From assembly GCA_018433885.1 (NCBI GenBank), contig JAHDQK010000082.1, forward strand, positions 1-36,549: DNA of 36,549 nt, given 5' to 3'. Origin of the DNA: Candidatus Cloacimonadota bacterium (lineage in GTDB: Bacteria; Cloacimonadota; Cloacimonadia; Cloacimonadales; Cloacimonadaceae). Positions 6,154 to 36,549 of this stretch are shown here, one piece after another. The notes beneath the pieces were generated by a model. It was not told where the DNA came from. It searched no databases and worked only from the letters and a program-made list of their open reading frames with translations. Position 1 is the first letter of the stretch; each line of letters begins with the position of its first letter. Position numbers and translations under genes: made by a program.

Positions 6154-7722
6154 ATGAAACGCCCCTTCAGCATCATCGGATCCCACATCACTAAGATCGG
6201 CATCATCGTCACAATCCTTTTGATCAGCACTCTGCTGAATCTCCGGGTAGATACATCCAGGGACAAAGCATTCAGCATCAGCAAGATCAGTAAAAATCTG
6301 GTAAGAGACCTAGATGAAGCCATGGTGGTGAAGATTATCTCCACCCGGGAACTCCCCGCGGAACTCACATCTCTATCGCGCTATACAAGCGATCTTCTGG
6401 CAGAGTTTCAAAGCGCATCACGAGGTAAATTCCGCTACGAATATATCCGCCCTGCCAGCTTTGAAGAACTAAGCCAACTGGCAGCCGCAAATAATCTGCG
6501 TCCCATGCGATTCCAGAACTTTGAGAACGACAGGATGACCAGTAAGGAAGTTATCTTCGGGATGGTCATCGAGTATCAAGGCAGAGTGGAAAGCATGAAT
6601 CTGATGCCGAGTCTGGAACCCAAACTGGAATATGAAATGACCATGCGGATTCAGAGCCTGGTTTCGGATACTCTACCCAAAGTAGCAGTTTTTCGAGATT
6701 CCACATACTATCACTTTAACACCCGCTTTTTTGAACGGGGGATCAAATCGAACTTCAATGTAATCGATGCGGATCTTTCCAAACCTTTGGACGATGTTGA
6801 CGCTTTGCTCTTCACAGGAGCAAGCCGTAATCTTCCGGAAGAATATCTGTATCACATCGATCAATATCTGATGAGCGGTGGGAAAGTGGTGTTTCTGCAG
6901 GATAAAGTAGATACAGACGGTCAAAACCTCTACTCTCTGAACACAAACGTGATCCGTATGCTGGATCACTACGGTTTTCAACTCTCTACGGATGTGCTTC
7001 TAGATATGAATTGCGATCAACGCCAGATGGGAATCGGAAACATAGCTAACTTCCCAATGTATCCCATCATGCGCGGCAGCAACCACATAATCTCCAGAGG
7101 GATGGATTACATTGTGCTGTATCTTGCCAGCGGAATTACCGTGAAACCAGGCAATGGCGTAGATTTCGAGACTATCCTGCAGAGTTCTCAATACTCCGGT
7201 TGGATGCTGGCTCCGGAATTTAAAATCAACGAAAACCTCTTTTTCAATCCGGAATTGGAAGATTTCAGCGCTGGACCAGTAACCACCGCCACGATGGGCA
7301 AAGGTAGATTCTCCAGTTTCTTCGAAGATAATCCCCTAGCAGAAGCGGATCAGGACTTCCAAAAAGAAACTAATGCGGGCTCAGTAGTTCTCTTCGCAGA
7401 TAAAGAACTTGTAATTGATCCCGACAACCCAATCTACAACGACCGCTCCAACGTGATTCTGAACGCCTTGGATCATCTGTTTGACCGTGATGCCATGATC
7501 AGCATCCGCAACCGTCACCTCAGAAAATCTCCACTTATGGTAAGAGCCTTTATGGAGAAAAACGGCATCATCTGGGGTGATATGGAGAAGATAGAAAACA
7601 ATCTCAAACTGATTGCAAAAATAGTTGCTATTGCTCTGCCCCCTCTGATCCTGATCCTTGTGGGGCTTTGGCTGGCTTTCAAACGCAGATTGAAGTTGAG
7701 GACATTAAATGAAGAAAAGTAA
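6154..7722 (+). CDS. GldG-like ABC transporter auxiliary protein
   Basis: The 522-residue protein has one N-terminal membrane segment (about 12-28), then a long extracytoplasmic region, and one C-terminal membrane segment (about 487-510) followed by a basic tail. The N-terminal part after the first segment (DTSRDKAFSISKISKNLVRD) matches the style of GldG, in which newly exported 'R-D-x-T-x-x-K-x-x-LS' sequences precede a DUF4350/ABC-auxiliary domain. The middle contains GGKVVFLQDKVDTDGQ (near 244), typical of the auxiliary domain that adopts a glutamine-amidotransferase-like fold without catalytic residues. An AGGAG-like site lies in the end of the permease gene. It is expected to act with the ATPase and permease as one exporter complex. 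Confidence 0.85.
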   Translation: MKRPFSIIGSHITKIGIIVTILLISTLLNLRVDTSRDKAFSISKISKNLVRDLDEAMVVKIISTRELPAELTSLSRYTSDLLAEFQSASRGKFRYEYIRPASFEELSQLAAANNLRPMRFQNFENDRMTSKEVIFGMVIEYQGRVESMNLMPSLEPKLEYEMTMRIQSLVSDTLPKVAVFRDSTYYHFNTRFFERGIKSNFNVIDADLSKPLDDVDALLFTGASRNLPEEYLYHIDQYLMSGGKVVFLQDKVDTDGQNLYSLNTNVIRMLDHYGFQLSTDVLLDMNCDQRQMGIGNIANFPMYPIMRGSNHIISRGMDYIVLYLASGITVKPGNGVDFETILQSSQYSGWMLAPEFKINENLFFNPELEDFSAGPVTTATMGKGRFSSFFEDNPLAEADQDFQKETNAGSVVLFADKELVIDPDNPIYNDRSNVILNALDHLFDRDAMISIRNRHLRKSPLMVRAFMEKNGIIWGDMEKIENNLKLIAKIVAIALPPLILILVGLWLAFKRRLKLRTLNEEK

Positions 7723-33839: not shown

Positions 33840-36122
33840 ATGAATCACTTGAATCGCATTAAATGCGGGTTGCTGGCAGGGCTTTTGCTCTTACTCTGTA
33901 CGGGAATGACTGCCGAGTTTGTATCTCCGGCACAGGCTTTGGGTGTGGCTCAGAATTGGCTTACTTGGCGTCAGGATGGAGAAGCGCTCACCTTAAAGAG
34001 CTTGAAGTCCTATCGGAACAACGAGTTGCGGGCAATGAGTCTGAAAGCCGAAATCCCCAACCATCAACTCCCAGAGCTGTATGTTTTTTACTTCACCAAC
34101 GGCAGTTTCGCGGTTGTTCCGGCAGATAACAATCTACGCCCGGTTCTTGCCTACTCTTCGCTGGCTTTAAAGGATCCTGAAGACATGCCTCCTGCTTTCC
34201 AGATGTGGCTGGAATTCTATGCATCAGACGTAGTCGGAGTACGTGAAACTTCATTTGAACACTCTGAAAATCAAAGACTTTGGCAGGAAATCAGTGCGAA
34301 TGACTTTGGTTCAATGCCCCGGAACCGTGATGTAAGCCCACTTCTAAAAACAAACTGGAATCAGGATTGGCCATATAACGAACTATGCCCCTTGGATCCG
34401 GCAGGACCCGGTGGCAGAGTCTATGTAGGTTGCGTGGCTACTGCCATGGCGCAGGTAATGAAATATTGGAACAAACCTATTACCGGTCAAGGCTCCTCCA
34501 GCTATTATGCTTATGGATATGGTTATCAATCAGTTAATTATGGTAACACTACTTATCTTTGGGACGAAATGCCAAACTCCGTGAGCGGCTCAAACATCCC
34601 AGTGGCTACTCTGATGTATCATGCGGCAGTTTCTGTGGAAATGGGCTTCGCTCCAGACGGCTCCGGCTCAAACGGTATGAAAGCCAGAAACGCTTTCGAA
34701 AGCTATTGGGGTTATCCCGGCGCTACCTATAACCAAAAACAAAGCTACTCCTCCACTCAGTGGGAGTCCCTTCTGCGCACTCAGCTGGATAATGGAATCC
34801 CGATGTATTACAGCGGATCAAATACAGATTCCGGCCACGCCTGGAACTGCGATGGCTATCAGGGAACAGATTACTTTCACTTCAATTTCGGATGGAGTGG
34901 TTCTTACAACGGCTATTACTACCTGAACTCAATCACTCCCGGAAGTAACTCCTTCAATCTGTATCAGGCGGCGATCACAAACACTACCCCGGCAAACTAC
35001 ACCATGACCCAACCCCGGATTCAGCTTTTTGCAAATTCACCCAGCGCGGGAGATCCTTTCACCCTGCGCATGAGTACCTATCCGGTTTTAGCAGATTGGG
35101 AAGTTGACGATATCAGCCTGAGCCTGTTCTACGATCACACGGCGATGCAATATACAGGATACGACCTCAACGGCACCCTCGCCGCCAATGGTAATTTACA
35201 GGTGGTCGACGATGGAAATGGCTACTTGAATATTACCTGGAACCGAAGTACCCCCATCGTGGGAGGCGGGGATCTCTTCAAGTTCAATTTCCGCGCAATA
35301 GAACCCGGGAACTTCTATTTTGGCCCCGTGGATATGAAGTATAATGGACAAATCTTACAAAACGTGGAACCCCTCCTCCTAGACGTAACCGCACCAGTTG
35401 CCACCCTTGCACAATCCCGAATCACACTTACAAATGCCATGCATGTGGGCATGAACCAGTTGGGCACCATGGCGATGAACAGCACCTATCTACCCCCATC
35501 ATGGAACGTCACCCATGTAGATTTTAAGGTCAATTTCAATGCGGAGTTAATCGGTTTTGAGGACATCCAGACCGAGGGCACACTTACAGAAACCCATCTG
35601 GTTCTGCAAAGCACGATCATCGGCCCCGGCGTGGTTCATGTTACTATCCAGACGGATCAACCGCTCAGCGGACTTGGAATGCCCTTGTTGAAGCTAAGAT
35701 TCCGCGCGATTGGCAACGGCCATACTGCCGTACCCGTTTCTGTTTCACTCACTGATTTTATGTACAACACCACTCCAATTACCAACACTGGAACCGGTAT
35801 CTTCGTGTTATCCGCTGTTTCTTCTGTTGATGAAGATACTCCCATGCCTGTGTTCAATGCTTCAGTTTACCCAAATCCCTTCAATCCCAGCACCACCATT
35901 CTGCTTTCGCTTCCCAAGGCTCAGATGACGGATGTATCTATCTATAACCTGAAAGGACAAAAAGTGATAACCCTACATAAAGATTCACTCGCCTCCGGTG
36001 AACATCGCTTCATCTGGCATGGCATGGATGAGCTCAGAAACAACGTAGGCAATGGTATCTACTTGCTGAAGATTCAAACTGAGAACGGGACGATCACCCG
36101 CAAACTGAGCTTGATGAAATAA
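33840..36122 (+). CDS. Secreted C10-family cysteine peptidase with cohesin-like domains and T9SS sorting tail
   Basis: The 760-residue protein has a signal peptide (about 1-25), then a streptopain-type inhibitory prodomain (about 27-165). The C10 catalytic domain (about 166-384) has Cys198 in VGCVATAMAQVMKYW, His333 in GHAWNCDGY and Trp352 in NFGWSGS, as in SpeB. Two cohesin-like beta domains follow (about 392-515 and 525-655), each with a late FRAI motif after LFKFN or LLKLR. The last 90 residues are a T9SS sorting domain with YPNPFNPSTT, YNLKGQKV and NGIYLLKI. It should be exported as a zymogen and work at the surface or outside, feeding on or processing proteins. AGGAGGT precedes the ATG. 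Confidence 0.93.
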   Translation: MNHLNRIKCGLLAGLLLLLCTGMTAEFVSPAQALGVAQNWLTWRQDGEALTLKSLKSYRNNELRAMSLKAEIPNHQLPELYVFYFTNGSFAVVPADNNLRPVLAYSSLALKDPEDMPPAFQMWLEFYASDVVGVRETSFEHSENQRLWQEISANDFGSMPRNRDVSPLLKTNWNQDWPYNELCPLDPAGPGGRVYVGCVATAMAQVMKYWNKPITGQGSSSYYAYGYGYQSVNYGNTTYLWDEMPNSVSGSNIPVATLMYHAAVSVEMGFAPDGSGSNGMKARNAFESYWGYPGATYNQKQSYSSTQWESLLRTQLDNGIPMYYSGSNTDSGHAWNCDGYQGTDYFHFNFGWSGSYNGYYYLNSITPGSNSFNLYQAAITNTTPANYTMTQPRIQLFANSPSAGDPFTLRMSTYPVLADWEVDDISLSLFYDHTAMQYTGYDLNGTLAANGNLQVVDDGNGYLNITWNRSTPIVGGGDLFKFNFRAIEPGNFYFGPVDMKYNGQILQNVEPLLLDVTAPVATLAQSRITLTNAMHVGMNQLGTMAMNSTYLPPSWNVTHVDFKVNFNAELIGFEDIQTEGTLTETHLVLQSTIIGPGVVHVTIQTDQPLSGLGMPLLKLRFRAIGNGHTAVPVSVSLTDFMYNTTPITNTGTGIFVLSAVSSVDEDTPMPVFNASVYPNPFNPSTTILLSLPKAQMTDVSIYNLKGQKVITLHKDSLASGEHRFIWHGMDELRNNVGNGIYLLKIQTENGTITRKLSLMK

Positions 36123-36166: not shown

Positions 36167-36416
36167 CTTGCATGTATGCCGAAAGATTCTCGTCTCGGCT
36201 GTGGAATCTTTTCCTCTCATTTTTGTACTTGTTTTCATTAACATCTTCGTTACTCATAACATTTGCTGGAAAGTTTGATTCGGTTTTTTGGCGATAATGG
36301 CAGCCATCGCAGTAAGATACTGAATCTCCCTTAAACCCTCAATTAGTAAAACAGTGCGAGATTAGCCCACGGAAGCTATTCCACAAGCAAATGTAAATTC
36401 ATCAACACTATTATGG

Positions 36417-36539
36417 GACAGGGTGTTTGGAAAAGATGGTGGTGGATGTAAGGTGGTGATAAATGGGGAGATAGGGAGAATATGGAGGTTTGGAAATATT
36501 TGGGGATTTTGGGTGAATGTTCGACAGGGTGTTTGGAAA
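36417..36539 (+). repeat. 17-nt direct repeat pair flanking a C-free tract
   Basis: GACAGGGTGTTTGGAAA occurs at 36417-36433 and again at 36523-36539 without mismatch. Its core TTTGGAAA also occurs at 36489-36496. The intervals between the three cores (63 and 43 nt) are unequal, which argues against a CRISPR or a simple tandem array, though the window may cut off further copies. Confidence 0.75.
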
Positions 36540-36549
36540 TTACGACAAG

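Follow-up and report, generated by a model that had tools for sequence, protein, structure and literature searches.

Why would 102 consecutive nucleotides at the end of a bacterial contig contain no C? The window analysed here is a stretch of 36,549 nucleotides and represents one whole contig (C77) of a 91-contig Candidatus Cloacimonadota genome (G000), with the tract at its end. The original prediction had drawn attention to this strand bias and to the 17-nt repeats around it, and had suggested a replication-related element, a G-quadruplex or transfer site, a long untranslated RNA, or the edge of a repeat array continuing past the window.

A C-free tract and its repeats

A recount of the tract (36420-36521; all window coordinates refer to the plus strand) gave 0 C, 43 G, 28 A and 31 T, and the 17-mer GACAGGGTGTTTGGAAA was indeed found as two perfect copies, at 36417-36433 (A1) and 36523-36539 (A3). 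The partial core said to lie between them is also present, reading ATATGGAGGTTTGGAAA at 36480-36496 (A2), and a fourth copy begins at 36544 (GACAAG...; A4, 36544-36549) and is cut by the contig end. The bias is as unusual as had been claimed: the second-longest C-free run within the window is 35 nt, and among 300 sequences of the window's size and composition, simulated with a first-order Markov model, the longest run lacking C or G had a median of 37 and a maximum of 62, compared to 102 in the tract.

Two genome searches followed from the original prediction. Beyond the window, the 17-mer occurs only in a duplicate end on contig C57. The search for C-free windows of at least 80 nt listed at least 100 overlapping matches, and those listed are confined to the element described below (C77 and C57), a CRISPR-adjacent 81-nt stretch (C82) and two short tandem-repeat arrays (C84). 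The CRISPR array on C82 (1-1121, L120), with the repeat GTCTTTACCCATCCATCCATTAAAACAAGGATTGAAAC seen 14 times, adjoins a G-rich 81-nt stretch that is C-free on the minus strand, and a comparison of its spacers with the phage contigs gave no convincing match (longest 14-16 nt). The C-free tandem arrays on C84 (12482-12592 and 15425-15523, L121) have units of the TTAGGTGT/TTAGGGG type. Low-complexity stretches were also seen in G010, a relative (L015, 9986-10128 and ~6590-6776), one of them G-free over 143 nt; with dozens of similar short matches in G010, these are likely dispersed AACTCTC-type repeats, which seem to occur also within the transposase gene on contig C73 of the window's own genome (as LNSQLST repeats, alongside a CEP repeat).

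The tract lies at one end of an element inserted twice

The final 141 bp of C77 recur in reverse at the start of C57, and the final 141 bp of a further contig, C67, recur in the same way at the start of C53. Within each pair, the two contigs run into a shared sequence with the same orientation, as they would where an assembler of word length 141 reached the ends of a two-copy element. At the tract, assembly broke off because the repeat is present in two copies: C77 and C57 hold one end (A) of a single element inserted at two places, and C67 and C53 hold the other (B). The first bases of end A are TATTATGG-GACAGGGTGTTTGG; those of end B are TATCCCGC-GACAGGGTGTTTGG.

Were A and B the opposite ends of a single element, direct repeats should be found in their flanks, and this is what we observed. 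At the first insertion, C77 reads AACAC up to end A, and AACAC follows end B on C53; at the second, C67 reads ATATT up to end B, and ATATT follows end A on C57. Both are exact 5-bp target duplications, and the chance of two 5-bp matches at fixed register is ~1e-6. In the window, the left copy of AACAC lies at 36404-36408, and its right copy stands on C53 directly after end B. The element starts at 36409 with an 8-bp tip, TATTATGG (36409-36416); the 141-bp identity with C57 begins exactly at this base, the register of the target duplication agrees, and the same tip register is found on two contigs of G010 (C18 and C137). The host gene beside the insertion, the last one in the window (33840-36122, plus strand), encodes a Peptidase_C10 protein with a Spi inhibitor and a secretion tail.

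The empty first site is preserved in two relatives, G003 and G006, where the C10 peptidase homologue is followed directly by the homologue of the first gene of C53 and the junction reads TCAACACC once, with a single AACAC. For the second insertion, the C57 flank (a GNAT gene) was not found in relatives and the neighbours of C67 do not adjoin C57 homologues there; this neighbourhood is not conserved. The ends of related elements occupy unrelated host sites, and the 5-bp duplications at varying host sites (AACAC, ATATT) are of the kind that transposable phages leave. An assembly artefact, which the original prediction had allowed for, does not account for the tract: related ends were found independently in other genomes, and the contig stop was itself caused by the repeat.

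The ends carry arrays of putative transposase-binding sites

We read the 17-nt repeat as the element's putative transposase-binding site (GACA-N5-TTTGGAA), which begins after the 8 bp of the tip. A1 is conserved in relatives and A3 is its exact copy, whereas A2 is a half site, 72 nt from the tip and at the same position in G010 and G034. These two genomes also hold a complete counterpart of A4, 21 bp after A3. Measured from the tip, end A has GACA-N5-TTTGG sites at 9 and 115 nt, relatives have a further one at 135-136 nt, and the half site falls at 72; end B has its sites at 9, 31, 59 and 116 nt. The C-free, G-rich tract covers most of A1 and, beyond it, the spacer that separates the outer site of end A from the inner ones. 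End A is C-poor (4-6 % C) in G000, G010, G034 and G041, whereas end B is not. On C78 (L010), a near-match to the pattern stands alone in otherwise different sequence, and we took it as chance.

The repeat array that was suspected to continue past the window is therefore, in all probability, an array of terminal transposase sites, here putative, belonging to a mobile element that has its body past the end of C77, and the suggested transfer site came close in the sense of a mobile-element end.

Related elements carry phage genes between their ends

DNA searches found end A in G010, G034 and G006 (148 relatives) and end B in G006 and G001 (60 relatives); the exact end-A pattern had no match in IMG/VR. 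Past end A, contig C18 of G010 encodes, in order and all on one strand, a neck-like protein, an unknown protein, a Mu F-like head protein, an endolysin-like protein, Gam, a GemA-like protein, a MuB/TniB-like ATPase and a 751-aa Mu transposase. Past end B, G001 encodes a tape-measure protein, terminase, portal, capsid-like protein, protease and repressor. Both halves stand together, in the same divergent layout, in a 26.3-kb IMG/VR record. Head, packaging and tail genes are thus present between the ends in relatives; they were not seen in the copies of the window's own genome.

A candidate interior piece from the window's genome is C73, a 4.3-kb contig encoding the ATPase and a transposase 71 % identical to that of G010; interior phage genes besides C73 were not found in the bin. 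The transposase has rve and Mu-transpos_C domains in both C73 and G010, matches the phrog_310 transposase (4.6e-73) and conserves D335, D402 and E461 at spacings of 67 and 59, and its close homologues are recorded as Candidatus Cloacimonadota. The ATPase matches the AAA_22/TniB domain and the phrog_296 DNA transposition protein. G000 also encodes three more distant Mu-type transposases (~30 % identical; C3:1471-2988, C21:17443-18873 and C78:430-1797), indicating that several transposable elements coexist in this genome.

We conclude with high confidence that the tract belongs to end A of an element present twice in this genome, namely a Mu-like transposable prophage or a shortened derivative keeping both ends. 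The two copies could be short, non-autonomous mini-prophages with both ends but a gutted interior, mobilised in trans by a complete relative (that of C73, for example), which we consider rather unlikely. A 1.6-kb derivative with both ends does exist in G006 (C20, L017 11778-13405), its ends are the closest in sequence to those of this genome, and apart from C73 the bin lacks interior phage genes. However, C73 shows that the bin contains an autonomous transposase from this clade, and repeat contigs often drop out of bins regardless of their length. Mini-prophages of this kind would in any case be a variant of the prophage explanation, with its mechanism unchanged. The G006 derivative retains tape-measure and Mu F-like gene fragments and has no target duplication; its flanks differ (ATAAA vs GCATG), and it is thus a remnant or rearranged. 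Similarly, the second end-A copy of G010, on C137 (L064 from 5074), is a rearranged prophage remnant, broken off after ~60 nt and followed by F and tape-measure fragments.

TA tips and a second prophage lineage

The first bases of the element are TAT and the last ATA, as fixed by the two target duplications here and the two end-A copies in G010. TAT...ATA tips were found at every end defined by a target duplication or by two copies, instead of the TG...CA tips by which transposable phages are recognised. Known transposable phages end in TG-CA, but TA-TA ends with 6-bp duplications have been reported in Leptospira (PMC8705779), and because of this precedent TG...CA tips are not an absolute criterion. 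As far as we found, a TA-ended transposable lineage had been described only in Leptospira.

A second prophage lineage, with a transposase ~32 % identical to that of the window lineage, is present in a single-contig Cloacimonadota genome, G020. This genome holds two 34.2-kb transposable prophages in opposite orientation and 91-94 % identical (C1, ~231704-265873 and 531989-565715; L102-L105, L118, L119). Their tips read TATGCG.../...TTTATA, and they are flanked by the target duplications TTCAC and TCTCT. TA-TA tips with a 5-bp duplication are thus seen at four insertions.

Comparison with known transposition systems

Like the Mu, B3, D3112 and BcepMu groups, the Cloacimonadota element combines a DDE transposase bearing rve and Mu-transpos_C domains with a MuB-like ATPase, Gam, a GemA-like protein, a Mu F-like head protein and 5-bp target duplications. 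It differs from Mu-like phages in its TA-TA rather than TG-CA tips, and in late genes that are transcribed divergently from the early genes. Against every phage of the collection searched, its transposase reaches only ~25 % identity, and its IMG/VR relative has ~26 kb of genes compared to 36-39 kb in Mu-like phages. We also take its site motif to be unlike that of Mu. The TA-TA prophages of Leptospira (WETA1 type, PMC8705779), compared here by description, share the TA...TA ends, direct target duplication and Mu-type transposase, but they have 6-bp duplications where we found 5 bp, are 38-40 kb long and belong to another phylum.

The anatomy of end A is close to that of Tn7. In the annotated copy of E. 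coli FDAARGOS_536 (L101), beside pstS and a class 2 integron, an 8-bp tip is followed by GACA-type sites (GACAAAATAGTTTGGAAC), the first at position 9 and others at 73 and 129, with a 48-nt C-free, G-rich spacer between the first and second. Judging by this layout, the C-free tract would work in the manner of a Tn7-type end array and may be related to it, in spite of the phage genes in the element. The likeness raises the alternative that the window holds the end of a Tn7-like (TnsABC) transposon and no phage at all, for which GACA-N5-TTTGGAA sites starting after 8 bp, the C-free, G-rich spacer and the 5-bp duplications could all be cited, as could the best PDB matches of the transposase, which are TnsB proteins (E 1.3e-8). 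We consider this very improbable. Related elements hold head, tail, packaging, repressor, Gam and GemA-like genes between their ends; the interior genes scanned in them matched no TnsA (or TnsA-type endonuclease), no TniQ and no CRISPR component; and the tips are TA, not the TGT of Tn7, a TnsABCDE transposon.

The strand bias itself is what would suggest a host G-quadruplex or a replication or transfer regulatory element unconnected to transposition, but this is least credible of all, being refuted by the target duplications and the empty site for the first copy: the tract lies inside an element with exact ends, related ends sit at unrelated host sites, and the window copy lacks the strict G4 pattern (four runs of at least three G at loops up to 12). 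That pattern does occur in G010 and G034; absent from the window copy and not common to all relatives, it was rejected as a conserved function. Neither an origin or dif site nor a long untranslated RNA found support.

Discussion

Given the prophage explanation, homology and end anatomy together suggest how the element might move. Its MuA-type DDE transposase would bind the GACA-N5-TTTGG sites at both ends, pair ends A and B and cleave beside the TA tips, and the cut ends would be joined to staggered target cuts 5 bp apart at a target probably chosen by the MuB-like ATPase. The strand bias of the C-free spacer could perhaps reflect weak, overlapping transposase contacts.

Our literature search on Cloacimonadota phages found no paper on transposable phages, and the ends of such phages have now been fixed exactly in this uncultured phylum, together with their site arrays and a map of their genes. 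The Leptospira study had left the occurrence of TA-TA ends in other bacteria for investigation (PMC8705779); TA-TA transposable prophages are now known from a further phylum, where they form two lineages and leave 5-bp duplications. The conserved strand-biased end is a feature open to transposase binding assays. Tentatively, and with somewhat less than even confidence, we propose that Cloacimonadota carry TA-TA transposable phages in at least two lineages, the window lineage having Tn7-type end arrays and a C-poor, G-rich end A, and that the TA tip with a 5-bp duplication may form its own branch of end chemistry and might link TnsB- and MuA-type transposition at the sequence level.
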